This document shows, one piece after another, positions 7,829 through 51,568 of a DNA stretch of 64,000 nucleotides; position 1 is the first letter of the stretch; each line of letters begins with the position of its first letter. The stretch is from Nissabacter sp. SGAir0207 (GTDB lineage: Bacteria; Pseudomonadota; Gammaproteobacteria; Enterobacterales; Enterobacteriaceae). A model generated the notes under the pieces. That model saw nothing but the letters and a program-made list of their open reading frames with translations, was not told the DNA's origin and ran no database searches. The DNA lies in NCBI RefSeq assembly GCF_005491205.1, contig NZ_CP028035.1:3224001-3288000 (forward strand). Reading direction: 5' to 3'. The translations under genes were made by a program, and so were the position numbers.

Positions 7829-7882
7829 CCCGTTCCGGGCGCGCCTGCCGCGCCCGGTTCCCTTTCCCCGAGACAAGAAGCG

Positions 7883-8569: not shown

Positions 8570-8574
8570 TTGCC

Positions 8575-8603
8575 TGACCGCCGTCCGTCGGCGGTCATTT
8601 TTT
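8575..8603 (+). terminator. Rho-independent terminator after rluA
   Basis: Perfect 9-bp stem TGACCGCCG / CGGCGGTCA with a 5-base loop, followed by six T residues, starting six bases after the rluA stop. Confidence 0.9.
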
Positions 8604-8766
8604 GACCCGCATCACAAACTCACATCACTGGCCGCCATTTCTCCTGCTAATTGATTGTGCCGGGCAGACATTCCGCCGCCCGCTTTTTATGCTTCCCCCT
8701 ATCCGGCCCGGCAACACAGCGATACCGCCGCGGCCTTTGCCTTACGCAGGTGATAAAGAGGATGTC

Positions 8767-10065
8767 ATGAAAAGATATGCATTAGTCGGAACCGGTGGGC
8801 GCGCGGGCCTCTTTATTGAGGCCATCGGCAGCACCTACCGGGAGAGCGCCAGGCTGGTGGGATTTTGTGATACCAACCAGACGCGGATGAACTACGCCAA
8901 CCGCCTGCTGGCCCAGTCAGGCGCGGCGCCGGTGCCGACCTTCTCGGCGGCGGAGTTCGAGGAGATGATTGACGAGACCAGCCCGGACATCGTGATCGTC
9001 ACCAGCATTGACCGCACCCACGATGACTACATCATCCGCGCGTTGCAGGCTGGCTGCGATGTGATCACCGAAAAGCCGATGACCATCGACGCCGAGCGTG
9101 CGCTGCGCATCACCGAGGCGATCGAGGAGAGCGGCCGGCAGGTGCGCGTCACCTTCAACTATCGCTACGCGCCGCACCACAGCAAGGTGCGCGAACTGCT
9201 GATGAAGGGAACGATTGGCGAGGTGTTCTCCGTGCACTTCGAGTGGCTGCTGAACACCGAGCATGGCGCGGACTACTTCCGCCGCTGGCACCGCGAGAAA
9301 CGCAACAGCGGCGGCCTGCTGGTGCACAAATCGACCCACCACTTCGATCTGGTCAACTTCTGGCTCAACAGCGCGCCGGAGCAGGTCTACGCGATGGGCG
9401 ACCTGCGCTTCTACGGTCGCGAGAACGCCGAGCGGCGCGGCGAGACCCAATTCTACGCCCGCGCCCACGGCTCCGCGCTGGCGAAGGAAGATCCTTTCGC
9501 GCTGCACATGGCCGATAACCCGCAGTTGAGCGCCCTCTATCTGGAGGCGGAGCATGAGGACAGCTACTACCGCGACCAGAGCGTCTTCAGCGACGGCATC
9601 AACATCGAAGACACGCTGTCGGTGCTGGTGAAGTACCGCAACCGCGCGCAGCTCACCTACTCGCTCAACGCCTACCTGCCGTGGGAGGGGCTGAACGTGG
9701 TGTTCAACGGCAGCAAGGGACGGCTGGAGATGAAGGTGGTGGAGCACTCCTACGTCAACGGCGGCGGCCTGCGCGAGGGAGAAGGCGCGCTGGATGAGTG
9801 CCAGATCACCGTCTGGCCGATGTTTGGTGAGGCGTGGCAGGCGGAGTTCACCGCGGGCGCAGGCGGCCACGGCGGCGGCGATCAGGCGATGCTGGAGGAT
9901 CTGTTTGGCTCGCCGCCCATCGACCCGCTGCAACGCGCCGCTGACCACCGCGCTGGCACGCTCTCCATCCTGACCGGCATCGCTGGCAACCTCTCGATGC
10001 AGCGCAATGCGCCGGTGCGCTTCGATGAGTTCGAGGTGGTGCGCAAACTGCGCGGCGGCCGCTGA
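8767..10065 (+). CDS. Gfo/Idh/MocA-family NAD(P)-dependent oxidoreductase
   Basis: Predicted sugar or polyol dehydrogenase of the glucose-fructose oxidoreductase/inositol dehydrogenase family; the substrate is unknown. The 432-residue protein starts with a Rossmann motif (VGTGGRAG, residues 6-13), has the family motif EKPMTID near residue 105, and the C-terminal dimerisation domain with the conserved LVHKSTHHFDLVNFWL around residues 182-197. The start ATG follows a GATAAAGAGGAT stretch acting as ribosome-binding site. It stands alone between two terminators, so it is a single-gene unit inserted between rluA and djlA relative to the E. coli order. Confidence 0.85.
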   Translation: MKRYALVGTGGRAGLFIEAIGSTYRESARLVGFCDTNQTRMNYANRLLAQSGAAPVPTFSAAEFEEMIDETSPDIVIVTSIDRTHDDYIIRALQAGCDVITEKPMTIDAERALRITEAIEESGRQVRVTFNYRYAPHHSKVRELLMKGTIGEVFSVHFEWLLNTEHGADYFRRWHREKRNSGGLLVHKSTHHFDLVNFWLNSAPEQVYAMGDLRFYGRENAERRGETQFYARAHGSALAKEDPFALHMADNPQLSALYLEAEHEDSYYRDQSVFSDGINIEDTLSVLVKYRNRAQLTYSLNAYLPWEGLNVVFNGSKGRLEMKVVEHSYVNGGGLREGEGALDECQITVWPMFGEAWQAEFTAGAGGHGGGDQAMLEDLFGSPPIDPLQRAADHRAGTLSILTGIAGNLSMQRNAPVRFDEFEVVRKLRGGR

Positions 10066-37547: not shown

Positions 37548-37563
37548 TGTGAGCTGCCTCACA
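37548..37563 (+). promoter_or_regulatory. CRP site of the fructose-type PTS / alpha-mannosidase operon
   Basis: TGTGAGCTGCCTCACA is a perfect TGTGA-N6-TCACA palindrome. Its centre is 55.5 bp upstream of the centre of the first operator, the same distance as at the second PTS promoter (45400-45471). Confidence 0.8.
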
Positions 37564-37602
37564 GCCGGGGCGACAACGTGCCGCATCTCCCGGAATCTGC
37601 TG

Positions 37603-37619
37603 GGTTAATCGCGTTTACC
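37603..37619 (+). promoter_or_regulatory. Operator O1 (17 bp) of the sugar regulon
   Basis: GGTTAATCGCGTTTACC: half sites GGTTAA and TTTACC (one mismatch to TTAACC) separated by TCGCG. Same 17-bp form as the site at 45455-45471. Confidence 0.7.
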
Positions 37620-37634
37620 ACCCTTTCGTAAAAA

Positions 37635-37650
37635 AGTTAATCGATTAACC
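37635..37650 (+). promoter_or_regulatory. Operator O2 (16 bp) of the sugar regulon
   Basis: AGTTAATCGATTAACC, a 16-bp palindrome with central CG typical of LacI-family operators; one mismatch at the outermost base. Centre 31.5 bp from O1, about three helical turns, and 47.5 bp before the start codon. Confidence 0.75.
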
Positions 37651-37689
37651 TAGCGCTGACCAGATTTCACCCATGCGGCAGGAGGAGTG

Positions 37690-39654
37690 ATGATACTAAG
37701 CAGCATAACGGCCGAGAGCCTCATTGTGCTGGATGCGCCCTGGGACAGCCGGGCGGTGATCCTTGAGGAGCTAAGCCAGCGCCTGCTTGAGCAGGGAAAG
37801 ATCGCTGACCGGGCGCAGTTTCTGGAGGCGGTGTGGCAGCGCGAGGCGCTCTCCGAGACTGGCTTTGAGCAGGGTGTCGCCCTGCCCCACGGCAAGTCGC
37901 CGGTGGTGACGGCCCCGGCGTTTGCCGTGGCGCGGCTGACGCAGCCGGTGGCCGACTGGCCAACGATGGATGGCGAAAACCGGGTGGATCTGGTGTTCCT
38001 GCTGGCGGTGCCGCAGGGGGACAGCGACGGCCATATCCGTTTGCTGTCGGCGCTGAGTCTGGCGCTGATGGAGGAGGATCGCGTGCAGGCGCTGAAAACC
38101 GCCACCAGCCCGCAGGCATTCCTCACGCTGCTCGACAGCGCCAGCGCCGACGCCACGCCAGTGAGCGCGCCCAGCCGTACGCTGGTCGCCATCACCTCCT
38201 GTCCGGCCGGTATCGCCCACACCTATATGGCTGCCGAGGCGCTGGAGCGGGCGGGCGCGGCGCGCGGCATCCAGATCCATTGTGAAAAACAGGGCGCGAG
38301 TGGCACCGAAGGGGAATTGACGGCGGCGCAGATTCGTGACGCCGAGGGGGTGATCTTTGCCGCCACCCTGCCGCCCAAGGGACGGGGGCGCTTCCACGGC
38401 AAGCCCTACGTCTCGGTGCCGGTCTCCGCGCCGTTGAAGGATGCCGACGGCGTGATTGACCGCCTGTTGCAGCAGCCCGATGGCGTAGTAACCGAGGCGC
38501 ACGCGACGGAGCCACCGCCGCGCAGCGGCCTCACCCTCTCCGGCCGCCTCTACCAAGGCGTCTCCAGCGGCATCTCCTATATGATCCCGGTGATTGTCGC
38601 CGCCGGGCTGATGATGGGCATCGGCCAGTTGCTCGCCAGCGCCTGCGGCATCACGGACATTGCCAACGCGCAGTATGCCACCGCCGATCGGTGGACGGTG
38701 ACGATGGCCCACTGGCTGTCGCTGTATGGCGCGATGATCATGAAGTTTATGTACCCGGTGTTCGCCGCCTACATGGCGTGGAGTCTGGCCGACCGGCCGG
38801 GCCTGATGCCGGGCTTTGTCGGCGGGGCCTTCGCTGGCGGGCTGCACTTCACCTTCTGGTCGGTGCCCGGCGGCGTGCCCTCCGGCTTTCTGGGCGCATT
38901 GATCCTTGGCATGGCGGCCGGGCTGATCGCCGACACCCTCAACCGGCGCATCCACCTGCACCGGCATTTGCAGGCGATGAAGCCGATGCTGATTGTGCCC
39001 GGCCTGACGGTCATCGCCCTGTTCCTGCTCAACTTCTACTTTGTCGATCCGGTGTTTGGCGGCCTTAACCGGGCGTTGCAGGCGTTCATTACCGCGCACG
39101 GCAACTCCAGCGCCCTGACGCTCGCCGTGATCATCGCCTCCCTCACCGCCTTCGATTTAGGAGGCCCGGTAAACAAATCCGCCGGGGCGATCGCCATTGG
39201 GCTGGCGGCTGACCACATCTTCCCGCTGACGCCACGGGTGCTGGCGATTGTCATCCCACCGATCGGCATCGGCCTCGCCACCCTGATCGACCGCTTTCTG
39301 GTGCACCGCCGGGTGTTCGACGAGAGCCTGCGGGTCACCGGCACCACCTCGCTGATCCTCGGCTTCCTCGCCATTGGCGAGGGGGCGATCCCCTTTATGC
39401 TGAAAAACCCGCTGATCACCATCTCCCTCAACATGCTGGGCGCGGTGCTCGGCGCGGTGATCGCCATCCTGCTTGGCTCGGTGCAGTGGTATCCGCTGCC
39501 CGCCATCTGGGGCTGGCCACTGGTGCAGAACCTGCCCGCCTACCTGTGCGGCATGGTGACCGGGATTGCGTTCATCGCCATCAGCAATGTCTTTCTGCGT
39601 TTCTATCTGATTAAGCGCGGCCTGTTGACCGTCAATGACCAGGAGGGGTCATGA
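37690..39654 (+). CDS. Fructose-type PTS EIIABC (MngA-like)
   Basis: PTS permease that phosphorylates its sugar during uptake. 654 residues in the order EIIA-EIIB-EIIC, as in E. coli MngA (mannosylglycerate PTS, 658 residues). EIIA phosphorylation site H67 in GVALPHGKS; EIIB active Cys C172 in ITSCPAGIAHTYMAAE; EIIC from about 285 with FDLGGPVNKSAG and EGAIPFMLKNPL. The ATG at 37690 follows GGAGG by four bases; a GTG directly before it is less likely. The stop overlaps the downstream alpha-mannosidase start by four bases. The partner enzyme suggests an alpha-mannosyl-type glycoside such as 2-O-alpha-mannosylglycerate, but the substrate is inferred. Confidence 0.85.
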   Translation: MILSSITAESLIVLDAPWDSRAVILEELSQRLLEQGKIADRAQFLEAVWQREALSETGFEQGVALPHGKSPVVTAPAFAVARLTQPVADWPTMDGENRVDLVFLLAVPQGDSDGHIRLLSALSLALMEEDRVQALKTATSPQAFLTLLDSASADATPVSAPSRTLVAITSCPAGIAHTYMAAEALERAGAARGIQIHCEKQGASGTEGELTAAQIRDAEGVIFAATLPPKGRGRFHGKPYVSVPVSAPLKDADGVIDRLLQQPDGVVTEAHATEPPPRSGLTLSGRLYQGVSSGISYMIPVIVAAGLMMGIGQLLASACGITDIANAQYATADRWTVTMAHWLSLYGAMIMKFMYPVFAAYMAWSLADRPGLMPGFVGGAFAGGLHFTFWSVPGGVPSGFLGALILGMAAGLIADTLNRRIHLHRHLQAMKPMLIVPGLTVIALFLLNFYFVDPVFGGLNRALQAFITAHGNSSALTLAVIIASLTAFDLGGPVNKSAGAIAIGLAADHIFPLTPRVLAIVIPPIGIGLATLIDRFLVHRRVFDESLRVTGTTSLILGFLAIGEGAIPFMLKNPLITISLNMLGAVLGAVIAILLGSVQWYPLPAIWGWPLVQNLPAYLCGMVTGIAFIAISNVFLRFYLIKRGLLTVNDQEGS

Positions 39655-42284
39655 AGCACACGCACGTTTATGTTGTCCCGCACTGCCACTGGGACGCCGA
39701 GTGGTACTTTACCTGCGAGGACTCCCACATCCTGCTGGTGGAGAATCTCGACTACCTTCTCGACCTGCTGGAGCAGCGCGAGGATTTCCCCAGCTACACC
39801 TTCGATGGGCTGGCGATTGTGCTGGAGGAGTACCTGCGGGTACGGCCAGAGAACGCCGGGCGGCTGGCGGCGCTGATCGGCCAGCGCCGGCTGTTGGTCG
39901 GCCCCTGGTACACCCAGTGCGACTCGCTGCTGATCCGCACCGAGTCTTTGATCCGCAACCTGCAATATGGCATCCGCACCGCCGAGCGCTTCGGCCACAG
40001 TATGGACATCGGCTACCTGCCGGACATCTTCGGCCAGCACGCCTGGCTGCCTGCCATCTTCACCGACCTTGGCATCCACTACTGCGTGCTGCAACGCGGC
40101 GTCTATACCGAGCAGCTCAAAGGCGATCTTAACTTCTGGTGGCAGTCGCCCAACGGCAAGCGTATCGCCACCCACTACCTCTACTATGGCTACGGCCCCG
40201 GCAAGTTCCTGGCGGCGGATGACACCTACCTCAACCAGCGCCTGCTGCCGATTTTGACCTCGTTGCGCGCCATGAACCGCAGCACTGACACGCTGCTGCT
40301 GCCCGCGGGCGGCGATCAGGTGCTGGCAAATGCCCGCTTCCCGCAGATTGTCGAGGAGCTTAACGCCCTTGGCCTGCCGTGGCGTTTCACCCTTACCGAC
40401 TATGAGCACTATATGCGTGACGTCTGGGCCGACGCGCCCTTTAGCCACACGCTGGAGGGTGAGCTGTACGCCTGCCAGAAGTCGCGCATCCACCGCACCT
40501 GCCACTCCACGCGCTATGACATTAAGCGCCAGAACTGGCAGACCGAGCACCTGCTGCTGGATCAGCTGGAGCCGCTGGCGGCGATGGCGTCGTTGATGGG
40601 CATCCACTACCCCGCGCCGCTGCTGGATGAGATGTGGAAAACGCTGTTCGCCGCCCATGCGCACAACGGCATTGAGGCGACCAACGCCGATGCCGTCAAC
40701 CTCAATATCCGCCAGCGGCTGGTGAGCGTGGAGCGCTCCGCCCTCAGTCTGCTCAACCTGTTGAAGAAGAAGATTGCCCGCCGCGTCGATCAGGAGAACG
40801 CGTTGCTGGTGTTCAACGGCGATCCGACCCCGCAGGAGAAGCTGGTGCGCGCCGTGCTCTTCACCCGCCAGCCCAACTTCGCCCTGCGCCGGGCGGGCGC
40901 GCTGCTCGACAGCACGCTGCTCAGCCAGCAGCAAATGCCCGGCGGCCAGCGCGTGGTGGTGACCGCCGCTGGCGAGAAGCTGGAGCCGCTGGAGGATTAC
41001 TACCGCAGCGAGGTGCTGTTCCGCACCACCCTGCCGGGGCTGTGCTGGCACACCCTGAGTGTCGATGAGCAGGGTGCTGCCCCGGCGCTGCGCCCCGCGC
41101 CGCAGCCGGTGATAGAGAATGGCTGCTATCGCGTCACCTTCGAGCAAGAGGGGCTGACGCTGGAGAACCTGCGCAACGGTTGCCGCCTGCGCCACCCCAT
41201 CACCTTTGTCGAGTGCGGTGATGACGGCGACGAGTTTGACTTCGCGCCGCTCGAGTCCGAGATCCCCGACGCCTGCCAGCGCTTTAGCCTCATCCGTTGC
41301 GAGACCGGGCCATTGGCCGCGCGCATGACGCTGGCGACCACGTTGCAACTGCCAGCGGACATGGCGAGCCGCAAGGCGGGCCAGCGCAACCTGACGATGG
41401 TGGTGCACACCACGCTGGAGCTGCGTCAGGGCGAGCCGTGGCTGCGCGTGCAGCACCAGCTGACCAACGCCGCCACCGACCACCGGTTGCGGGTGCACCT
41501 CGCCACGCCCGTCCGCTCGCCGCGCTTCTCCTTCGCCGATCAGGGCTACAGCCTGCTGCGCCGCGACACCCACAGCCCGTGGCTCGCCAATTGGCGCGAG
41601 CAAGGTTTTGTCGAGAAGCCGATGCCAATTTTCACGCTGGAGAACATCGTGCTGGTGCAGAATGACGACCACAACTTTGGCGTGCTGACGCAGGGCATCA
41701 AGGAGTATGAGGTGTTGCCGGATGAGCAGGTGCTGGCGCTGACGCTCTATCGCAGCGTCGGGCTGCTGGGCAAGGATGACACCCCCTGGCGGCCGGGGCG
41801 CGCCTCTGGCATCAACAACAAAGTGGTGGAGACGCCCGACGCCCAGCTATTGCAGCCGCTGGTGTTCGACTATGCGCTGCTGCTCGACACCCTGCCGGAT
41901 GAGGCCGCGGCCTTCGCCGCCATCCGTGACTACCGCGAGCCGGTGATGAGCTACCACGTGCAGGATCTCAACACCTTCGAGGAGCGGCTGGAGCGCTTCA
42001 CCCTGCCGCTGCCTGCGCAGACGATGCCAGCGGATCTGTCGCTGTTCAGCCTGACCAACCCGCGCATCTTCCTCAGCATGTGTCGGCCCGGCGTGGAGGC
42101 CGGGGAGTTGGTGATCCGGCTGTTCAACCCCGGCCGCCGCCCGGAGCGGGCCACGCTGGAGATGGCGCGCCCCTGCCAGATGCTGCGTCTGTCGCTGCGT
42201 GAGGATGATCCGCAGCCGCTGGCCGAGGAGGCGCTGATCCCGCCGGGCGACTACCTGACGCTGCTGCTGCGTTTCGCGCCCTAG
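39651..42284 (+). CDS. GH38 alpha-mannosidase (MngB-like)
   Basis: Cytosolic glycoside hydrolase family 38 enzyme; MngB of E. coli hydrolyses 6-phosphomannosyl-glycerate after PTS uptake. 877 residues, the same length as E. coli MngB. Catalytic zinc motif HCHWDAEW with H13 and D15, nucleophile D125 in GYLPDIFGQHAWLP, and a further zinc His in AAHAHNGIEA near 343. Starts ATG inside the last codons of the EIIABC gene (ATGA overlap), so the two are translationally coupled. The expected products are mannose 6-phosphate and an aglycone. E. coli mngAB is controlled by a GntR-type MngR; here a LacI-type regulator is predicted. Confidence 0.85.
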   Translation: MKHTHVYVVPHCHWDAEWYFTCEDSHILLVENLDYLLDLLEQREDFPSYTFDGLAIVLEEYLRVRPENAGRLAALIGQRRLLVGPWYTQCDSLLIRTESLIRNLQYGIRTAERFGHSMDIGYLPDIFGQHAWLPAIFTDLGIHYCVLQRGVYTEQLKGDLNFWWQSPNGKRIATHYLYYGYGPGKFLAADDTYLNQRLLPILTSLRAMNRSTDTLLLPAGGDQVLANARFPQIVEELNALGLPWRFTLTDYEHYMRDVWADAPFSHTLEGELYACQKSRIHRTCHSTRYDIKRQNWQTEHLLLDQLEPLAAMASLMGIHYPAPLLDEMWKTLFAAHAHNGIEATNADAVNLNIRQRLVSVERSALSLLNLLKKKIARRVDQENALLVFNGDPTPQEKLVRAVLFTRQPNFALRRAGALLDSTLLSQQQMPGGQRVVVTAAGEKLEPLEDYYRSEVLFRTTLPGLCWHTLSVDEQGAAPALRPAPQPVIENGCYRVTFEQEGLTLENLRNGCRLRHPITFVECGDDGDEFDFAPLESEIPDACQRFSLIRCETGPLAARMTLATTLQLPADMASRKAGQRNLTMVVHTTLELRQGEPWLRVQHQLTNAATDHRLRVHLATPVRSPRFSFADQGYSLLRRDTHSPWLANWREQGFVEKPMPIFTLENIVLVQNDDHNFGVLTQGIKEYEVLPDEQVLALTLYRSVGLLGKDDTPWRPGRASGINNKVVETPDAQLLQPLVFDYALLLDTLPDEAAAFAAIRDYREPVMSYHVQDLNTFEERLERFTLPLPAQTMPADLSLFSLTNPRIFLSMCRPGVEAGELVIRLFNPGRRPERATLEMARPCQMLRLSLREDDPQPLAEEALIPPGDYLTLLLRFAP

Positions 42285-42317
42285 CGGCGCGGCCCCGGCC
42301 AGCAACTCAAGGCCGGG

Positions 42318-43091
42318 TCAGGGCAGGAAGCGCCGCCACTGTGCTGCCACCCGTCCCGGCCGGGAGATGAACTGTAGCCGCGCCGGATCGTCGCGGAACT
42401 GCTGGTAGAGCGGCGCATCGGTGAGGCCGAACTCGTGGTAGCGGCGCGGCGTGATCACCTGCAACTGCCCTGGCGCATAGTGCGGGTTGCGCTGCCAGAC
42501 AATGTGCGTGCCCTGTACCAGCGGATACCACGCCAACCCGTGGCGCGCGCAGAGCGCGCCATGATCCGCGCGCCTCTCCCGGTCACAACAGGTGGCGAAA
42601 GCCAGCGGCGCGTCTGGCGTGGCGGACAGGATGGCGTGCGCCCAGCCCGGCGGCACCAGCACCTTCTCCCCCGGCCCGGCCTGCACCGCGAAGCAGCGTC
42701 CGGCATCCTCCGCCACATACTCCTGCATGTAGACCATCGCCCGCCCCTGCCAGATCTCAATCAGCTCCGGCGGCGACCAGCCGCTGTGCTGGCTGATAGG
42801 GTGCACATGCCCCTGGCTGTGCACCGGCTCCGCGCCGAGGGTGCCCGCCGCGCAGGCCACCACGCAGAAGCGCAGCATCCGCCGCTCCAGCTCCGCCCGA
42901 TCATCCAGCCGCGCCACGTCCGTTGCCGTGGCGTACACCTGTGCCGGGCCGTCGCAACCCGGATCGCGCAGCAGCGACCGCATCTGCGCCAGCGTGCGGA
43001 TCTCCGGCATCGGCCCAATCACCTCCTCGCCATAGCTGAAACCCAGCGGATCGTGCCGGATGGCCATCTCCAACCCATACCTCGTCTCCAT
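42318..43091 (-). CDS. Cupin phosphosugar isomerase homologue (GPI type), copy A
   Basis: 257-residue protein related to the cupin-type glucose-6-phosphate isomerases. The metal-site region reads SQGHVHPISQHSGWSPPELIEIW (H95, H97, acidic E109/E112) and VLVPPGWAHAI (H152). It is a close paralogue of the product at 49884-50666: long segments such as SQHSGWSPPEL, GEKVLVPPGW and LQFISRP are shared. The insertion between the HxH and the Glu is unusual for canonical cupin isomerases, so the activity is uncertain. Start ATG 43091 follows AGGGGGAGAG. It is convergent with the alpha-mannosidase gene; no regulon operator was found in front of it. Confidence 0.7.
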   Translation of the reverse strand: METRYGLEMAIRHDPLGFSYGEEVIGPMPEIRTLAQMRSLLRDPGCDGPAQVYATATDVARLDDRAELERRMLRFCVVACAAGTLGAEPVHSQGHVHPISQHSGWSPPELIEIWQGRAMVYMQEYVAEDAGRCFAVQAGPGEKVLVPPGWAHAILSATPDAPLAFATCCDRERRADHGALCARHGLAWYPLVQGTHIVWQRNPHYAPGQLQVITPRRYHEFGLTDAPLYQQFRDDPARLQFISRPGRVAAQWRRFLP

Positions 43092-43299
43092 CTCTCCCCC
43101 TGTCTGGTTATTGTGATCCCGGCAGGGTAGCCGATGGGTTTGGTGGCGCTGGCGGCAGGTGTTGGATTCTGCTGGCCCAGTCACAAGCCAGCGCTGTCAG
43201 GGTGCCAATGGCGCCGAAAAAACCATAAATAATGCAAATATCTGCATATTCATGCATTAATCGGAGAGGGGAAAAAGGGAGGTAGTCAGGCGCGGGGCG

Positions 43300-43326
43300 A
43301 AAAAAGGGGCAACCGTTCATTGCCCC
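43300..43326 (-). terminator. Terminator after dapB
   Basis: Minus strand GGGGCAA-TGAACGG-TTGCCCC followed by six T residues, about 52 bases beyond the dapB stop. Confidence 0.9.
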
Positions 43327-43377
43327 GTAATCCAAGACTTATGATTGAAATAACCACATCACGATGGTTGGGAAAGC

Positions 43378-44214
<837 letters not shown>

Positions 44215-44332
44215 TTAATTTTAGGTAAATCGTTTTCAGAGTAACCAGCACATCGTCGTGCCGCCAGCCGAAAACGTCGATAATTAGAATTTAATGATAA
44301 ACAGGCGGAGATATCAGTAAAAGGCATGACTC

Positions 44333-45340
44333 TCAGCAAAAGCCACATGACTCCCTGACCACCAGCGCCGGCGGCAGGATAATGCGTTTCGGCGGTTCGT
44401 CATTGCCCTGAATCCGGCTGTACAACAGCTCCCCCGCCTTGCGGCCGATCTCTTTCGCCGCCACGGACACCGTGGTGAGCGCGGGTTGCACCAGCGCCGC
44501 TTCGGTGATGTCATCAAACCCCACCAGCGCAAAATCCCGTCCCGGTTCGCGCCCCATCTTGCGTAGCGCCTGCATGACGCCAAGCGCCACGATATCTTGG
44601 TAACAGACGGCGGCGGTAATTTGCGGGTAACGCAGAAGCAGGGACTCCGCCACGTTTTCGCCGTCAATTTGGCTGGCCTGCGTCGCCACGATCCACGCCG
44701 GGTTCGGCGATATGCCCTGCTCCAGCAACGTACTGGTGAACCCACCGATGCGCTGTGCCCGGCTGCCGGAAGTGGGGCTGCCGCCAATAAACGCGATGTG
44801 TTTATGCCCCATGTTGACGAGGTGGGTGGTCGCCATCTGCGTACCGAGAAAGTTATCGGTGCCGACAAAATCAAAATCAGGATCGCTCAGGGGACGCACC
44901 ACCATGATGGCGGGAATGTTGCGCCGTTTCAGCGCCTCGAAAAAGGAGGCTGGCGTCTCGCGCGCCGCGCAGAGCACCATGCCGCAGGCATTGTTGCGCA
45001 TCAACGAATCGACAAATTTTTGCTGCCGCTCTCCTGACTCTTCGCTATTGGCCAGAAACAGCAGCAGGTCATGCCGCTCCATCTCATGGCTTAGCCCTGC
45101 CGTCATCTCGCCGTAAAAAGGGTTGGTGATATCGTGCAGCAGCAAGCCAACCTGGTTACTCCTGCGGTTACGCAGGTTGGCGGCGGTTTGGTTGTACACA
45201 TAGCCCGCATCATCCAGCGCTTTGAGCACCCGGTCGCGTGTAGCCTGAGAAATTCGCCCCCGGTTGCGCAGTACCATTGAAACGGTTGCCGTGGAGACGC
45301 CCGCGCGTTCAGCGACCTGCGCCAACGTGACTGTTGCCAT
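44333..45340 (-). CDS. LacI/MalI-type transcriptional regulator of the sugar regulon
   Basis: 335-residue repressor. N-terminal helix-turn-helix VTLAQVAERAGVSTATVSMVL (about 4-24) with hinge helix region ending near 60, then a periplasmic-binding-protein-like effector domain beginning NQVGLLLHDITNPFYGEM. The ATG at 45340 follows GGAGAG; an upstream GTG or TTG extension is unlikely. A palindrome of the GGTTAATCGATTAACC type lies 25 bases upstream of its start (autoregulation), and five more lie before the surrounding sugar genes, which makes this protein the likely regulator of all of them. Binding is inferred; the effector is probably a phosphosugar or mannosyl compound. Confidence 0.85.
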   Translation of the reverse strand: MATVTLAQVAERAGVSTATVSMVLRNRGRISQATRDRVLKALDDAGYVYNQTAANLRNRRSNQVGLLLHDITNPFYGEMTAGLSHEMERHDLLLFLANSEESGERQQKFVDSLMRNNACGMVLCAARETPASFFEALKRRNIPAIMVVRPLSDPDFDFVGTDNFLGTQMATTHLVNMGHKHIAFIGGSPTSGSRAQRIGGFTSTLLEQGISPNPAWIVATQASQIDGENVAESLLLRYPQITAAVCYQDIVALGVMQALRKMGREPGRDFALVGFDDITEAALVQPALTTVSVAAKEIGRKAGELLYSRIQGNDEPPKRIILPPALVVRESCGFC

Positions 45341-45364
45341 GATCTCTCCTGATCTCCTGTCCAA

Positions 45365-45380
45365 GGTTAATCGAATAACC
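45365..45380 (-). promoter_or_regulatory. Operator in front of the lacI-type gene
   Basis: GGTTAATCGAATAACC, one mismatch to the perfect palindrome, 25 bases upstream of the regulator start codon; probable autoregulatory site. Confidence 0.7.
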
Positions 45381-45399
45381 TACGTTTTGCTTTTTTACC

Positions 45400-45415
45400 T
45401 GTGATTCCCATCACG
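45400..45415 (+). promoter_or_regulatory. CRP site of the isomerase / mannose-type PTS operon
   Basis: TGTGATTCCCATCACG matches 9 of 10 fixed positions of TGTGA-N6-TCACA. Lies between the divergent regulator and PTS promoters and could serve both. Confidence 0.7.
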
Positions 45416-45454
45416 CCAGTGTGCTTTTGACCCTGCTGAATCCCGAATGTGGCG

Positions 45455-45471
45455 GGTTAATCGCGTTAACC
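45455..45471 (+). promoter_or_regulatory. Operator O1 (17 bp) of the second PTS promoter
   Basis: GGTTAATCGCGTTAACC: perfect half sites GGTTAA and TTAACC around TCGCG. Centre 55.5 bp downstream of the CRP-site centre. Confidence 0.75.
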
Positions 45472-45486
45472 ACACTAGGAAAATAA

Positions 45487-45502
45487 GGTTAATCGATTAA
45501 TC
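45487..45502 (+). promoter_or_regulatory. Operator O2 (16 bp) of the second PTS promoter
   Basis: GGTTAATCGATTAATC, centre 31.5 bp downstream of O1 and 35.5 bp before the start codon of the isomerase gene. Same spacing as at the first PTS promoter. Confidence 0.75.
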
Positions 45503-45529
45503 TTTAATAAGCCAACACGGAGAAAGAAA

Positions 45530-47275
45530 ATGTCTACCACCTACAATAAATTCCCTGAGGTTAACGTTCAGGGCTATGACCATCACGCCTGGCAGGGTTG
45601 GGCGTCGATCCAGGCTGAGCTTAACACCAGAATCTCTACCGCCGCCAAAACCGTCCTGATCGTGGATTGCTATCCGGGCGTGCGGCTTGACGAACTGGAG
45701 CACCAGCTCGTCACGACACTCGACACCGCGCGGGTGCTGAATATTGAATCCGCCCGCCGCGATGAGCAGGCCCTGCATGAACTGCTGGCGCGCAACCTGA
45801 CCGACGATCGCGTATTCGGCGTGCTCTCCTGCCATCAGCTGGAGGAGTTTTTTGATCGCGACAAGCTCAGCCAGATCCGGCAACAGATTGATGCCGTCAC
45901 CGAGGGTCTGGTGGTGGTGTATGGCTCCGGCGCGGCGCTGGCGCACCCCGGTGACGTACTGGTGTATGCCGATCTCCCACGCTGGGAGATCCAACAGCGT
46001 ATGCGCCATGACGGGCTGGGTAACTGGGGGGCGGAGAACCCGCAGGAAGACATTCTTCGGCGTTACAAACGCGCGTTCTTTATTGAGTGGCGGGTGTTCG
46101 ACCGGCACAAAACCCCGTTACTCAAACGCGCCGATTATTTGCTGGATACCACGCTAGAGAATCATCCGGCGATGGTCAGCGGCGACGCGCTGCGCGCTGG
46201 CCTGCAACAAACCACCGAACAACCGTTTCGCGTTGCCCCGCTCTTTGACCCCGGCGTCTGGGGTGGACAGTGGATGAAACAACGATTTGATCTCGATCCC
46301 TCAGCCGCCAATTACGCGTGGTGTTTTGATTGCGTGCCCGAGGAAAACAGCCTGTTACTGCGTTTTGGCAATGTGCGGATCGAGATCCCCTCTCAGGATT
46401 TGGTACTGACCTGTCCACGCGCCCTGCTGGGCGAGAAAGTGCACGCGCGCTTTGGCGCGGAGTTCCCGATTCGTTTTGACCTCCTCGATACCATTGGCGG
46501 CCAGAACTTGAGTTTCCAGGTTCATCCGGTCACCGAGTACATACAGCAGCAGTTTGGTATGCACTACACCCAGGATGAGAGCTATTACATTCTGGACGCC
46601 GAGCCGGATGCCGTGGTCTACCTCGGCACCAAAACCGGCATCGCGCCGCAGGCGATGCTCGACGATCTGAGGGCGGCGGGCCGTGGCGAGAAAGCGTTTG
46701 ATGATGAGCGATTCGTCAATCAGATCCCTGCCCGTAAACACGATCACTTCCTGATCCCGGCCGGCACCGTGCACTGTTCCGGCGCGGGCACGCTGGTGCT
46801 GGAGATCAGCGCCACGCCCTATATCTTCACCTTCAAACTGTGGGATTGGGGACGCTTAGGGTTGGATGGCCTGCCGCGCCCCGTCCATCTGGATCACGGC
46901 CAGCAGGTCATTGACTGGCAGCGTGATACCCAGTGGGTGCACGACAATCTGGTCAACCATATTGAGCCGATCGCCGAAGGGGAAGCGTGGCGGGAGGAGA
47001 GAACCGGGCTGCACGAACGCGAGTTCATTGAAACGCGTCGCCACTGGTTTACCGGGCCGGTCACGCACCACACCCGCGGCGGCGTGAACGTCCTGAATCT
47101 GGTGGAAGGTGCGCAAGCGGTGGTTGACAGCCCGAGCGGCGCGTTTGCCCCGTTTGTCGTCAATTACGCAGAGACTTTCATCATCCCAGCCGCGGTTGGC
47201 GAGTATCGCATTTCACCCTTTGGCAAGGGCATCGGCCAGCAGCTCGCCACCATCAAAGCCTGGGTAAGGGGATAA
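45530..47275 (+). CDS. Class I mannose-6-phosphate isomerase with extra N-terminal domain
   Basis: 581 residues. The C-terminal part (about 230-581) is a class I phosphomannose isomerase, expected to turn mannose 6-phosphate into fructose 6-phosphate: metal ligands Q330 and H332 in LSFQVHP, E350 in QDESYYIL, H415 in IPAGTVHCSGAG. The first 210 residues are additional to ManA (about 390 residues). They contain KTVLIVDCYPGVRLDEL where a nucleoside-kinase-like P-loop would be expected, but the GKS/T is missing, and a WRVFDRHKTPLLKRADYLLD segment near 187-206 that resembles the end of uridine-kinase-like domains. That domain is probably non-catalytic or binds a ligand. First gene of the operon, four bases before EIIA. 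Confidence 0.75.
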   Translation: MSTTYNKFPEVNVQGYDHHAWQGWASIQAELNTRISTAAKTVLIVDCYPGVRLDELEHQLVTTLDTARVLNIESARRDEQALHELLARNLTDDRVFGVLSCHQLEEFFDRDKLSQIRQQIDAVTEGLVVVYGSGAALAHPGDVLVYADLPRWEIQQRMRHDGLGNWGAENPQEDILRRYKRAFFIEWRVFDRHKTPLLKRADYLLDTTLENHPAMVSGDALRAGLQQTTEQPFRVAPLFDPGVWGGQWMKQRFDLDPSAANYAWCFDCVPEENSLLLRFGNVRIEIPSQDLVLTCPRALLGEKVHARFGAEFPIRFDLLDTIGGQNLSFQVHPVTEYIQQQFGMHYTQDESYYILDAEPDAVVYLGTKTGIAPQAMLDDLRAAGRGEKAFDDERFVNQIPARKHDHFLIPAGTVHCSGAGTLVLEISATPYIFTFKLWDWGRLGLDGLPRPVHLDHGQQVIDWQRDTQWVHDNLVNHIEPIAEGEAWREERTGLHEREFIETRRHWFTGPVTHHTRGGVNVLNLVEGAQAVVDSPSGAFAPFVVNYAETFIIPAAVGEYRISPFGKGIGQQLATIKAWVRG

Positions 47276-47279
47276 GCGC

Positions 47280-47708
47280 ATGATCAACGTCATTGTTGCC
47301 ACCCACGGCCCGCTGGCAGAAGCGCTTGTTGCCAGCGGGCGTATGGTTTACGGCGAGTTGCCGCACGTTTACCCGGTTACGCTGCGTGAAGACGCGGGTA
47401 TCGAAGGGTTTAAGGAGGCGTTCGCCCAAACGCTCGCCGATGCCGGGAAAAATGCCGACGGCGTGCTGGTGCTGTGCGACATGCAGAGCGGTACGCCGTG
47501 GAACGTCGCTTGCCACCATGCATTCTCGCCACAAACGCGCCCTCCCGTCGCCGTGGTGGCGGGCGTCAATTTCCCGATGCTGCTGCAAAGCGAAGAGATC
47601 TGCCATTTGACGGATGTCCACGCCGCAGCCGTTGAACTGTTGGCCTTGACGGTGCCGACCCTGATTAAAGCCGCCCCGGTTCTCTCCGTTCAATCCGACG
47701 ATTTTTAA
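47280..47708 (+). CDS. Mannose-family PTS EIIA component
   Basis: 142-residue soluble IIA protein; passes phosphate from HPr to IIB. The N-terminus MINVIVATHGPLAEALVASG carries the phosphorylated His H9. Separate IIA, IIB, IIC and IID genes follow in that order, the mannose/sorbose family arrangement. GC content in this operon looks lower (about 57% in a sampled stretch) than in the neighbouring alpha-mannosidase gene. Confidence 0.88.
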   Translation: MINVIVATHGPLAEALVASGRMVYGELPHVYPVTLREDAGIEGFKEAFAQTLADAGKNADGVLVLCDMQSGTPWNVACHHAFSPQTRPPVAVVAGVNFPMLLQSEEICHLTDVHAAAVELLALTVPTLIKAAPVLSVQSDDF

Positions 47709-47719
47709 AGGAAACCACT

Positions 47720-48214
47720 ATGAGTCTCTCTTTTGTACGTATCGATGACCGCGTGATCCACGGGCAGCTCGTGACACGTTGGGCCAAAGAGCTGCCCTGT
47801 GATGGGATCGTCGCGATAGATGATGCCGTCGCGGCCGATCCCCTGCTCTCTTCGGTGATGAAAGGGGCGGTGCAGGACACCAAGGTCTGGCTGTTTGATA
47901 CGGCCACCGCGATTGAAAAACTGCCCAAAGTCATTGCCAGCGAGAAGCGCTATTTCGTCATTGGCAAATCGCCTGTCACGCTGAAACGCCTCGAAGAGGC
48001 GGGCATCAGCCTGAAAAATGCCAACGGCAAGATCAACGTTGGCCCGATGAGCGCCCGCGCCGATACCACCACCATCGGCCCCAACCAGTCGGTGAATGGC
48101 GATGAAATTGCCGCCTTTGACTGGCTGACGCAACGTGGGCATCTGGTTGAGTTTCGTCTGGTGCCGGATGCCAGTTACTACAGCTGGCAGGACGCACGCC
48201 AGAAGCTGAAATAA
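47720..48214 (+). CDS. Mannose-family PTS EIIB component
   Basis: 164-residue soluble IIB protein with the family signature VRIDDRVIHGQLVTRW; H14 is the phosphorylation site. It directly phosphorylates the incoming sugar. Spaced 11 bases after EIIA and 10 before EIIC, with a GGA-type ribosome-binding site. Confidence 0.9.
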   Translation: MSLSFVRIDDRVIHGQLVTRWAKELPCDGIVAIDDAVAADPLLSSVMKGAVQDTKVWLFDTATAIEKLPKVIASEKRYFVIGKSPVTLKRLEEAGISLKNANGKINVGPMSARADTTTIGPNQSVNGDEIAAFDWLTQRGHLVEFRLVPDASYYSWQDARQKLK

Positions 48215-48224
48215 GGAGCGCACC

Positions 48225-49022
48225 ATGATTATCGAAGCTACGTTGATTGGCATACTTTGCTATCTCGGCGCGCTTAGCTGCCCCTGGCTGCTGGGACTGA
48301 CGGGCGGCTGGTATCTGATCACCCGCCCGCTGGTGTCCGGGATGTTGGTCGGGATTATCCTCGGCGACATTCAAACCGGCATCATGATTGGCGTTGCGGT
48401 GCAGGCGGTCTATATCGCGATGGTGACGCCCGGCGGCTCCATGCCGGCTGACCTTAACTTTGTCGCTTACCCGGCGATTGCCTTGGGGATCCTGTCGGGA
48501 CAAGGGCCAGAGGTGGCGGTCGCGCTGGCGGCGACCATCGGCATTGCCGGAACCATCTTATTTAATGCGATGATGGTTCTGAACTCCTTCTGGAACCACC
48601 GCGCCGACGTGGCGCTGGAGCGGGGCGACGAACGCGGGATCTACCTGAACAGCGCCATCTGGCCGCAGGCGACGAACTTCGTCCTACGTTTTGTGCCGAC
48701 CTTTATTGCGGTCTACTTTGGCGCGCAGTACATCAGCGGCTTTATGGACAGCTTGCCGAAGGTGGTTCTGTCGACGATGAACGTGCTGGGCGGCATTCTA
48801 CCCGCCGTCGGGATCGCGATTCTGCTTAAACAGATCATCAAAAACTACACCATGTTGATCTATTTTCTGGTCGGTTTTGTCTGCATCGTCTTTTTGAAAC
48901 TCAATATGGTCGCGCTGGTGATTGTCGGTTCGCTGTTGGCGTTGATCCATTACAACTACAAACCAGAACCGCCGCAGGCTGCGAAGGCAACGTCGGTTGT
49001 CGATGATGAGGATGAATTCTGA
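48225..49022 (+). CDS. Mannose-family PTS EIIC component
   Basis: 265-residue integral membrane channel component; hydrophobic throughout with GGWYLITRPLVSGMLVGIIL near 26-45 and GVAVQAVYIAMVTPGGSMPAD near 56-76, the hallmark of sorbose/mannose IIC proteins. C-terminal tail is acidic (DDEDEF). Its TGA overlaps the EIID ATG by one base. Confidence 0.9.
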   Translation: MIIEATLIGILCYLGALSCPWLLGLTGGWYLITRPLVSGMLVGIILGDIQTGIMIGVAVQAVYIAMVTPGGSMPADLNFVAYPAIALGILSGQGPEVAVALAATIGIAGTILFNAMMVLNSFWNHRADVALERGDERGIYLNSAIWPQATNFVLRFVPTFIAVYFGAQYISGFMDSLPKVVLSTMNVLGGILPAVGIAILLKQIIKNYTMLIYFLVGFVCIVFLKLNMVALVIVGSLLALIHYNYKPEPPQAAKATSVVDDEDEF

Positions 49023-49840
49023 TGGAAGCGCGCACACTGACCCGTAAAGATCTTCGCCGCTGCTGGCGTGCATGGATGATGCATAACTTGTCATCCATGA
49101 GCTTTGAACGTCTGGAATCTTTTGGCTTTTGCCTGAGTATGCTGCCGGTGGCGAAAAAACTCTATCCCGACGCCGCGCAGCGTACTGAAATGCTGCGCCG
49201 TCACGCCTCGTTCTATAATACCGAACCGCAGATGGGCGCCATCGTGAATGGCATGGCGCTGGGGCTGGAGGAGAAGAAAGCGAACGGTGAGCCGATCGAT
49301 GGGGAGACGATCAATACCCTGAAGGTTGGCCTGATGGGGCCGATTGCCGGGATCGGCGACTCGATGATCCCCGGCATGTTGATCCCTATCCTGCTCAGCA
49401 TCGGTATGGCTTTGGCGGCTGGCGGTAACATTCTGGGGCCGCTGTTTTATACCGTCGCCTGGCTGGCCATCATTATTCCCGGCTCGTGGTTCCTGTTCCT
49501 GAAGGGCTACAAAATGGGCTCCGGCTCGGTGGAGATGCTGGTGAGCAGCAAATCTACCCGCCTGCGTGAAGCGTTGTCACTGCTGGGCGTGTTTGTGATG
49601 GGGGGCGTCGCGGCAAGCTACGTGAAGCTCGGCAGCGGACTGGAATTTATCACCAACGATGGGGTGAATATCCATGTCCAGCAGATGTTGGACGGTATCT
49701 TCCCACAGTTACTGCCGCTGATCGTGGTACTCGGCACCTGGTATCTGATGGCGAAGCGCGGCGTGTCGCCGGTAAAAGCCATGATTCTGCTGTTGGTGCT
49801 GGCTGCCCTCGGCGTCGCCACGGGCCTGTTTGCGGGGTAA
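49022..49840 (+). CDS. Mannose-family PTS EIID component
   Basis: 272-residue membrane protein that forms the sugar channel with IIC. Family motifs: LSSMSFERLESFGFCLSMLP near 21-40, FYNTEPQMGAIVNGMALGLEE near 64-84, and GPIAGIGDSMIPGMLIPI near 110-127. Last gene of the operon, closed by a strong terminator. The sugar could be mannose, glucosamine, fructose-like or an oligosaccharide; sequence alone does not say. Confidence 0.9.
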   Translation: MEARTLTRKDLRRCWRAWMMHNLSSMSFERLESFGFCLSMLPVAKKLYPDAAQRTEMLRRHASFYNTEPQMGAIVNGMALGLEEKKANGEPIDGETINTLKVGLMGPIAGIGDSMIPGMLIPILLSIGMALAAGGNILGPLFYTVAWLAIIIPGSWFLFLKGYKMGSGSVEMLVSSKSTRLREALSLLGVFVMGGVAASYVKLGSGLEFITNDGVNIHVQQMLDGIFPQLLPLIVVLGTWYLMAKRGVSPVKAMILLLVLAALGVATGLFAG

Positions 49841-49861
49841 TACCTCAACGGCAATCTCTGT

Positions 49862-49885
49862 ACCGGGGCGATGCCCCGGTTTTTT
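49862..49885 (+). terminator. Terminator after the mannose-type PTS operon
   Basis: ACCGGGGC-GAT-GCCCCGGT stem-loop and a run of six T residues; the tail overlaps the stop codon of the converging cupin gene. Confidence 0.92.
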
Positions 49886-50666
49886 ATGGATGGAAGTTCT
49901 GCCACAGCGCCGGGTGTTTATCCGGGCGTGAGATAAATTGAAAGCGTGCCGGGTCTTCAATGAATTGCTGATAGACGGGCGCCGGGGTGACCGAAAATTC
50001 CGTATAGTGTCGGGGTGTGACGGCCTGTAACCGCCCCGCTTTGTAACGCGGATTATGCTGCCAGATAATCTGGTTCCCCTGAAGTAACGGATACCATGCC
50101 AGCCCTTTGTGCGCCCGTACCGCCTCGTACTCGAAGCCATATTCACGATCGCACCATGCCCCAAAGGTCAAGGGCACCGCCGGGTCGGCGGAGATGGTCG
50201 CATGTCCCCAACCGGGCGGCACCAACACTTTTTCACCGGGCCGGGCAATCACCGCAAAACAACGTCCGGGGTCATCCTCCACATACTCCTGCATATAGAT
50301 TATCGCTCTCCCCTGCCAGATTTCGTACAACTCCGGCGGAGACCAGCCGCTGTGCTGGCTGATGCGATGGATATGCCCCTGACTACGCACCGGCTCCTCC
50401 CCCAGCCGCCCCGCGGCATAGGTCACCACGCCAAACAGCAGCATCCGCTTTTCCAGCTCTTCGCGATCCTGCATCCGGGCCACATCCATCGCAATGGCAT
50501 ACACCTCTTCCGGCCCGTCACAGTGCGGATCGCGCAGTGAGGCGCGGATGTGGTCGAGCCGACGAATCTCCGGCATCGGCCCGGTAACGTCATCCCCATA
50601 GCTAAAGCCAAGCGGCTGGTGGTGAACCTTCATGTCCAGTCCGTAACCGGGCGCTGAGTCAGCCAT
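49884..50666 (-). CDS. Cupin phosphosugar isomerase homologue (GPI type), copy B
   Basis: 260-residue paralogue of the product at 42318-43091. Metal-site region SQGHIHRISQHSGWSPPELYEIW and VLVPPGWGHATI; the ELYEIWQGRAIIYMQE run is closer to canonical cupin glucose-6-phosphate isomerases than copy A. Start ATG 50666 follows GGAGGT; the gene overlaps the end of the upstream cupin gene by 8 bases, so the two form a unit. Canonical members interconvert glucose, fructose and sometimes mannose 6-phosphates, which fits the PTS and mannosidase context, but activity here is inferred. Confidence 0.72.
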   Translation of the reverse strand: MADSAPGYGLDMKVHHQPLGFSYGDDVTGPMPEIRRLDHIRASLRDPHCDGPEEVYAIAMDVARMQDREELEKRMLLFGVVTYAAGRLGEEPVRSQGHIHRISQHSGWSPPELYEIWQGRAIIYMQEYVEDDPGRCFAVIARPGEKVLVPPGWGHATISADPAVPLTFGAWCDREYGFEYEAVRAHKGLAWYPLLQGNQIIWQHNPRYKAGRLQAVTPRHYTEFSVTPAPVYQQFIEDPARFQFISRPDKHPALWQNFHP

Positions 50667-51222
50667 TCTGTACCTCCTTCGCCTGCACCCTCTGGTTCTG
50701 CTCAAAGACCCGGATGTTGAAGCCGCGGGCCAGCGCCGCATAGTCGTGGCCCGCGATCGCTGGCCATACGGCAAGCGCGGACAACACCTCCTCTCCGGTA
50801 TTGATTAACCGATGGGCGGTAAAGCCAGGAATAATATGCACCGAACCGGCGAAGACCTTTTCCAGCCGCGCCTCGCCCTGCTCCGTTTGCAGCAGCAACA
50901 ACCCGCTGCCACGCAGGCCAAAATAGACCTCCCCCTGTTCGCGGCGCGCATGGAAATGCCCGCGGGTCATGAAGTACTCGCAGCCGACCCGGCCAGGGTA
51001 AAGGTGGGTGACGCCCGTGTAGAGTTCGCCTTCCGCAGGCGTGGTAGCCAGCATCTCAACGTCATACACGACCCGCTCGCCAGCCAACTGCTGGCGGGCC
51101 TCTTCGTCGTCAAAAACGTCAGTAAGATCCTGAATGCGGGTTGATTTACGCAATAACGGGCCACCGGCTAATGCGCCGCTAGCCCACGCCACCTGGGGTG
51201 GCTGGATAAAAGAGAGAGTCAT
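50659..51222 (-). CDS. Cupin-type glucose-6-phosphate isomerase homologue (short form)
   Basis: 187 residues, the usual length of the archaeal-type cupin phosphoglucose isomerases. It has the canonical GHFHARREQGEVYFGLRGSG with H89, H91 and E98 (HxHx6E), then VHIIPGFTAHRLINTGEE with H137, and the AIAGHDYAALARGF tail typical of the family. Start ATG 51222 is chosen because ten upstream codons have no homology. First gene of a two-gene minus-strand unit with copy B; a regulon operator lies 43 bases upstream. Likely reaction is interconversion of hexose 6-phosphates. Confidence 0.8.
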   Translation of the reverse strand: MTLSFIQPPQVAWASGALAGGPLLRKSTRIQDLTDVFDDEEARQQLAGERVVYDVEMLATTPAEGELYTGVTHLYPGRVGCEYFMTRGHFHARREQGEVYFGLRGSGLLLLQTEQGEARLEKVFAGSVHIIPGFTAHRLINTGEEVLSALAVWPAIAGHDYAALARGFNIRVFEQNQRVQAKEVQNG

Positions 51223-51568
51223 ATGTGCCTCCGGCCCAAGGAGAACAGCCATCTCAGGTTAGCAGATTAATCGATTAACCCACCAATCCGATCACTATAG
51301 TGCGGGTTGGGTCACAACCTTAAGGCATCCGCGCTCCGCCCCTCTCGCCGGACAAATGGTTGAATAGTGAGGAATTTATGATATAGGCTTGTGAACATCG
51401 GCTAGATTTATCTGCCAGATGTTGAAAATAAGCGGCATCAATGGCTTCTGGCCGGAACGTGCAGGATTTTTCATATCCGGCCTGCGCCAGAGGGCGCTGA
51501 GGGCTAAGCTAAGAGGGCCGCGGCGTTGCTGCCGCACCCGATGAATGAAAGGGAGGACGACACGATTC
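51223..51568. other. Divergent intergenic region cupin operon / SMP-30 gene
   Basis: 346 bases without a gene. Holds the operator at 51265-51280 and, on the minus strand, TATAGT near 51300 as a possible -10 for the cupin operon. No operator or CRP site was found close to the SMP-30 start; a GCGGC/GCCGC hairpin lies just before its ribosome-binding site. Confidence 0.5.
51265..51280 (-). promoter_or_regulatory. Operator in front of the cupin isomerase pair
   Basis: Minus strand GGTTAATCGATTAATC, the same 16 bases as the O2 site at 45487-45502, 43 bases before the start of the short cupin gene. Confidence 0.75.

Follow-up and report, generated by a model that had tools for sequence, protein, structure and literature searches.

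In Escherichia coli, the LacI-family regulator MalI belongs to a malI-malXY divergon with CRP, and the mannosylglycerate system is made up of the GntR-type regulator MngR with MngA and MngB. The present work concerns a 64,000-nucleotide stretch of Nissabacter sp. SGAir0207 (contig NZ_CP028035.1, positions 3,224,001 to 3,288,000 of the forward strand), called the window from here on, in which a LacI-type regulator gene next to dapB and six palindromic sites very probably form a local catabolic regulon. On the sequence evidence, the regulator would act as a repressor of its own gene and of three mannose-type sugar gene sets, namely an operon for a phosphotransferase system (PTS) EIIABC protein and a GH38 α-mannosidase, an isomerase-PTS operon and a pair of cupin genes. 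Like MalI, whose NCBIfam model comes closest to it (304.6 bits, below the cutoff of 310), the regulator stands divergent to a PTS operon with a CRP-like site in between; unlike MalI, its targets are mannose-type genes rather than malXY, and the operator that we take to be that of MalI, GATAAAACGTTTTATC, is different. The EIIABC and GH38 proteins resemble MngA and MngB, but their scores (419.8 bits against a cutoff of 763, and 635.6 against 1138, respectively) are low, and the regulator is LacI-type, whereas MngR is GntR-type.

Further terms of comparison come from the LacI-family regulogs of Ravcheev et al. (2014, PMC4052901). In the part of that paper drawn on here, intersite distances peak at 32 bp, which was interpreted as cooperative binding, odd palindromes are given for 4% of regulators, and half-site spacing is usually constant within a group, flexibility being rare. 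The regulon of the window agrees with the regulogs in that part of PMC4052901 in its 16-bp even palindrome with a central CG, in autoregulation and in tandem sites spaced by about 32 bp, and differs from them in that a single regulator has odd operators next to even ones. No description of it was found in the literature as judged by title and start of the abstract, supplements and RegPrecise being outside the search, and it may already be listed in RegPrecise or in the supplement of PMC4052901. The regulon is of a familiar kind, and its unusual parts are the two-length operator pair and a composite history, in which the intergenus transfer stands out most.

The original prediction had listed six copies of a single operator around dapB. 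All six palindromes are found where it placed them, but they are of two lengths, four being 16-mers of the type GGTTAATCGATTAACC and two 17-mers of the type GGTTAATCGCGTTAACC. On the forward strand, the EIIABC-GH38 promoter carries a 17-mer at 37603..37619 (GGTTAATCGCGTTTACC) as the upstream member and a 16-mer at 37635..37650 (AGTTAATCGATTAACC) as the downstream member of a pair, and the isomerase-PTS promoter has, in the same orientation, the 17-mer itself at 45455..45471 and a 16-mer at 45487..45502 (GGTTAATCGATTAATC); in both pairs the centre of the 16-mer lies 31.5 bp past that of the 17-mer. Single 16-mers are present before the regulator gene (45365..45380, in the off-consensus form GGTTAATCGAATAACC) and before the cupin pair (51265..51280, GATTAATCGATTAACC). 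All four 16-mers have the central CG, and each is one mismatch away from GGTTAATCGATTAACC.

The sites are specific within the genome. With up to three mismatches, the window contains four 16-mers, all of them claimed sites, where 0.05 were expected and none of 100 shuffles reached four. The whole genome (5.03 Mb) yields 22 places at the same threshold, with six for the reversed-pattern control: four with one mismatch, all in the window, one with two (G000:C5:91356) and 17 with three, seven of which are one identical string, GGTTAAGCGACTAAGC, presumably the start of 23S rRNA. The 17-mer is found with up to three mismatches at 10 places (control, five), and only the two claimed sites have none or one. 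At one mismatch or less, matches of either length are limited in the genome to the six regulon sites, so that the motif does not occur at random frequency, and a chance origin of the sites is ruled out by the window shuffles together with the genome-wide counts of both lengths.

Conservation was evaluated in 75 loci of relatives, Clostridium left out, by looking for a 16-mer with at most two mismatches within 300 bp upstream of each gene; rows were dropped if the gene had less than 250 bp of upstream sequence or if its match began after residue 25. A site is present upstream of the regulator in all 75, of the isomerase-PTS operon in 72 of 74 (L014 and L039, the other two, have a longer operon in which the isomerase follows GH38), of the first cupin gene in 59 of 63 and of EIIABC in 3 of 5, so that relatives that keep the genes have mostly kept the sites too. 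Among control genes, the corresponding counts are 0/50 for carA, 0/35 for ispH, 0/32 for fkpB, 0/16 for lspA and 0/1 for ileS. Two neighbours were rejected as targets: dapB, with a site in 1 of 52 loci (L008, where the site is part of a neighbouring pair), and the SMP30 gene at 51545, with a site in none of four loci, which in congeners adjoins dapB without the cupin pair. When 12 further genomes were scanned, 11 with a full regulator and one (G481) with a shortened one, 28 of the 29 places matching with at most one mismatch were at regulon genes, as judged by gene content or by a distance of no more than about 10 kb from the regulator; the remaining one is G080:C1:3772134. Two mismatches gave 53 places, with three for the reversed control. 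Specificity and conservation of the sites thus support the control originally proposed for the regulator over its own gene, the EIIABC-mannosidase and isomerase-PTS operons and the cupin pair.

The two large operons have a common promoter plan, in which a CRP-like site is followed after 55.5 bp by the 17-mer centre and after a further 31.5 bp by the 16-mer centre. The CRP-like sites, which had not been part of the original prediction, match the pattern TGTGAN6TCAC[AG], scored over its 10 consensus bases, and are found on the forward strand at 37548..37563 for the EIIABC-GH38 promoter (TGTGAGCTGCCTCACA, 10/10) and at 45400..45415 between the divergent regulator and isomerase-PTS promoters (TGTGATTCCCATCACG, 9/10). 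Since 31.5 bp corresponds to 3.0 turns at 10.5 bp per turn, the two operators of a pair lie on one face of the helix, which makes cooperative binding probable. The arrangement was surveyed in 81 sources (the window, 76 regulator loci, L114, L115, L116 and L124, with L115 and L116 duplicating L014 and L008), 76 of which contain a total of 82 pairs, spaced by 31.5 bp (67 pairs), 32.5 bp (11), 33.5 bp (3) or 26.5 bp (1). A CRP-like site of at least 8/10 is present 54.5–56.5 bp upstream of the 17-mer in 80 of the 82, the other two being cut by the locus edge (L037) or a chance pair (L072). No pair was found in the other five sources, L052, L054, L056, the Clostridium locus L075 (30% identity) and L124, an mng region. 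In 55 cases, the regulator's own 16-mer sits 90.5 bp upstream of the 17-mer, and one of its arms is off-consensus, CGAATAACC, in many Enterobacteriaceae. The exact pair pattern, which is strict, matches 6 of 394 genomes in a sample of the order, 34 of the 394 being from the family of the window.

Alignment of 46 promoters on the 17-mer revealed that its half GGTTAATC is 95–100% conserved, and that in the other arm, TTAACC, the successive bases are conserved to 100, 97, 80, 100, 82 and 100%. Directly after the 17-mer comes a hexamer C-A-C-n-C-T, in which the A is kept in 93% and the T in 100% of the promoters, and in several lineages the cupin-pair promoter has TATACT, TATGCT or TATAAT directly 3′ of the 16-mer. 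From this alignment, the operators would cover part of the spacer that precedes the −10 element, and the second operator of a pair would stand at about the position that we take to be that of lac O1.

Several observations weigh against a regulon built in this way. No recognizable pair is found in two Pantoea loci (L054, L056) and in one Sodalis locus (L052); four of the 63 cupin loci do not have the upstream 16-mer, and two of these (L065, L066) are from Chimaeribacter congeners. For the EIIABC gene of L072, no site is found within 300 bp, and in C. amalonaticus (L116) it is an RpiR-like gene that follows the pair, EIIABC being further down. At the promoter level, a −35 element is not recognizable in the aligned promoters, the cupin promoter of the window shows TAACCT, a poor −10, and the distance of approximately 75 bp between the CRP-like site and the probable start is unlike what we presume to be the classical class I positions. 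Finally, the 17-mer is odd, and its central CpG is absent in some lineages (L019, L033, L039, L068, L069, L070), where it may be a weak or a half site.

The last points bear on the alternative that survives best, although we consider it rather unlikely, namely that the 17-mer is conserved as a core promoter element and that the 16-mers alone are bound. The fixed distance of the 17-mer from the CRP-like site, the lineages in which the central CpG is missing and the better conservation of its left half compared with the right one would all be explained in this way. However, both arms of the 17-mer are conserved, the left half has the same sequence as the 16-mer half-site, and a promoter alone does not require a palindrome. 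If instead the 17-mer is an operator, the two lengths could be an obligate unit of a single repressor, an odd 17-mer within the core promoter and an even 16-mer at the start, placed three turns apart, in a grammar that survives transfer between families. A Chimaeribacter regulon containing a foreign EIIABC-mannosidase operon, whose operators already matched, would in this way have come under a regulator of Citrobacter type. We advance this reading tentatively. Whichever the outcome, the mixed 16/17-bp pair offers a natural test case for the effect of half-site spacing on binding by LacI-family proteins.

A second alternative, that the regulator acts only locally, on itself and on the isomerase-PTS operon, the sites at EIIABC-GH38 and at the cupin pair being decayed or neutral copies, is very improbable. 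It would be in line with the history of EIIABC-GH38, which is unlike that of the regulator block, and with the two of five EIIABC loci that have no nearby site. Against it stand the exact 55.5/31.5 bp geometry of the EIIABC promoter of the window, the retention of the cupin-pair site in most loci and the situation in congeners. In G481, G582 and G651, EIIABC-GH38 and the regulator are on different contigs, and the unlinked copies, with EIIABC 70% identical to that of the window, still have the CRP-like site, the 17-mer and the 16-mer in the same order. Other genomes exhibit further combinations. In Enterobacter sp. ENT03 (L115), a 314-aa piece that by eye resembles the EIIABC N-terminus, GH38 and the isomerase-PTS genes form one row behind the divergent promoter of the regulator. 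In Citrobacter sp. 18056 (L039), EIIABC (in two pieces), GH38 and the isomerase are found in the same position. The EIIABC-GH38 operon of Enterobacter sp. kpr-6 (L034) is divergent to the cupin pair and has a separate promoter with CRP-like site, 17-mer and 16-mer. In L116, the genes at 7467–8891 between the operator pair and EIIABC are, by eye, RpiR-like and KdgM-porin-like.

With regulon-wide repression as the preferred reading, the computed sites, spacing, conservation, specificity and gene content suggest the following course of events. The effector-free repressor, probably a dimer, would bind the GGTTAATC half-sites, and at the two operon promoters it would occupy both members of the operator pair, the 17-mer over the core promoter and, just past the probable start, the 16-mer, probably in a cooperative manner because of the common helix face. 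The 16-mer before the regulator gene, off-consensus and probably weaker, would serve autorepression, and the lone 16-mer repression of the cupin pair. With low glucose, CRP-cyclic AMP would activate from its site upstream of the 17-mer, and a phosphorylated PTS product, probably a phospho-mannoside or mannose-6-phosphate, would release the repressor. EIIABC would then import and phosphorylate an α-mannoside for cleavage by the GH38 enzyme, the mannose-type PTS would bring in a hexose, and the class I isomerase and the cupin isomerases would interconvert the hexose phosphates. That the regulator is instead an activator or has a dual role is less probable still, since the operators overlap the inferred core promoters and the start region, as is usual for repression. 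It is scarcely credible that the sites belong to a different regulator of the LacI type, for example Cra (FruR). The Cra consensus, which we take to be TGAANCGNTTCA, has the core AATCGATT in common with them, but the regulon of Cra would span the genome, whereas sites with at most one mismatch are confined to this regulon and precede the regulator gene in every locus of the survey.

The regulator, a protein of 335 residues, is encoded on the reverse strand at 44333..45340, with the ATG at 45340 taken as the start from the position of the ribosome-binding site. It matches PF00356, the LacI helix-turn-helix (57.3 bits; cutoff, 27), and PF13377, the periplasmic-binding-protein-like sugar domain (122.3 bits; cutoff, 26.5). 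The helix-turn-helix and hinge are conserved in 76 orthologues: Leu56 and Ala53 are invariant, the helix TATVS differs in one row only, and 73 of the orthologues have Met at residue 22, the other 3 having Leu. In the part of PMC2978694 drawn on here, a hinge Leu accompanies a central CG, and Arg at the recognition position accompanies G at NT-6. By equating, by eye, Leu56 and Ala53 with hinge positions AA-54 and AA-51 of that part of PMC2978694, a central CG is expected, as found in the 16-mers, and by the same visual correspondence the lack of Arg at residue 22 fits an operator with T, not G, at NT-6. The regulator (E ≤ 1e-120) is present in 51 of the 392 sampled genomes of the family, for which an operator set, a promoter plan and a gene list are now defined; a megablast search with 44333–47275 against complete E. 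coli genomes gave no match. In G481 (L148, 683–1444), the regulator match covers residues 1–211 of 335 only, the frame ending early at 253 aa, and one-mismatch 16-mers remain at three places. A second regulator-isomerase set, 67% identical, is found in L145 (8112–11084; G570:C49), a contig with no 16-mer at up to two mismatches, and is probably a paralogue with another operator.

The history of the locus is composite. The flanking genes from ileS to ispH and carAB encode proteins 89–96% identical to those of the congener G582 (L142), with SMP30 at 80%, while the block from approximately 43.6 to 51.3 kb has 78–94% DNA identity, in 150-bp steps, with C. braakii L005, and the regulator is 96–97% identical to Citrobacter proteins. 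The dapB gene (43378..44199, reverse strand), itself outside the regulon and mostly within the transferred block, is only 77% identical to that of the congeners. In trees, dapB and the regulator group with five Citrobacter sequences (support, 99/97 and 100/93, respectively). By these comparisons a Chimaeribacter chromosome contains, in the regulator block and most of dapB, a segment of Citrobacter type, the congeners among the regulator loci being C. arupi (L065) and C. coloradensis (L066). From the long branch of dapB and its ambiguous 3′ end, one break is probably inside this gene, and the other is probably just past the operator ending at 51280. The position of the regulon beside dapB is due to this horizontal transfer, and not to any role of dapB. 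The EIIABC-GH38 operon appears to have a separate origin, given its identity gap: in comparisons with six other long copies of each protein, identity is 70–71% for EIIABC and 61–65% for GH38, against 87–92% and 77–85% among the congeners themselves, and shorter pieces are closer to the window (EIIABC, 76%, L039; GH38, 74%, L034). Judged from identity, therefore, its history is different from that of the regulator block, and its operators still match the transferred regulator. Thus, a donor-derived sugar-regulon block carries part of an essential biosynthetic gene, and operators elsewhere remain compatible with it.

As for the target genes, EIIABC, of the fructose/mannosylglycerate type (37687..39654), and the GH38 α-mannosidase (39651..42284) are both on the forward strand. 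Their identification as an Mng system was rejected because both scores are far below the MngA and MngB cutoffs and because a separate set, mngR-mngA-mngB, is present on contig C2 of the same genome (G000:C2:150000-162000, L124). There, MngA and MngB exceed the cutoffs (1147.8 and 1391.2 bits), and the GntR-type protein beside mngA (PRK09764, 437.6; cutoff, 281) is taken as MngR. The substrate of this distinct PTS-mannosidase set is probably an α-mannoside other than mannosylglycerate. In two congeners, two-mismatch sites (L150, 6196, GGTTAATCGATTAATT; L152, 4221, CATTAATCGATTAACC) sit at the end of another GH38 gene, 32–33% identical.

The isomerase-PTS operon, on the forward strand, consists of a gene for a 581-aa protein (45530..47275) and of the genes for EIIA, EIIB, EIIC and EIID of a mannose-family PTS (47280..49840). 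No Pfam or NCBIfam family matches the 581-aa protein at E 0.001. From about residue 229, it matches class I mannose-6-phosphate isomerase, as seen with 1qwr both in sequence (E 3.2e-12, residues 229–454) and in fold (Foldseek E 2.4e-10, from a model of mean pLDDT 67.6). Its N-terminal third (45530–46200) has an alpha/beta layout and no recognized family. This is probably the part of the model behind a weak match in fold to 5xmb, a pantothenate kinase (E 4.3e-4, TM-score 0.40 by target), for which the matched range is not displayed.

The cupin pair is on the reverse strand. The first gene (50659..51252; by eye, the ribosome-binding site favours ATG 51222 as the probable start) encodes a protein of the cupin phosphoglucose isomerase type, matching 1j3p of Thermococcus litoralis at E 8e-39 over residues 37–193; compared with that enzyme, the gene here is from an enteric bacterium, with a LacI-type operator in front and a divergent second cupin. 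The second gene (49884..50774; true start, by eye, probably near 50660) is of the GPI (PF06560) type, with a weak match to cupin phosphoglucose isomerase (E 3.4e-6). A third cupin gene of GPI type lies between GH38 and dapB (42318–43184), with a G+C content of 0.689 and no operator of its own; its product is 60–68% identical to the 12 second-cupin proteins compared, and it is perhaps a relic of an older regulon. Among the loci compared, L033, from a record titled Chryseobacterium sp. 18061, is an enterobacterial locus close to that of Citrobacter sp. 18056, and the record is likely mislabelled or contaminated.

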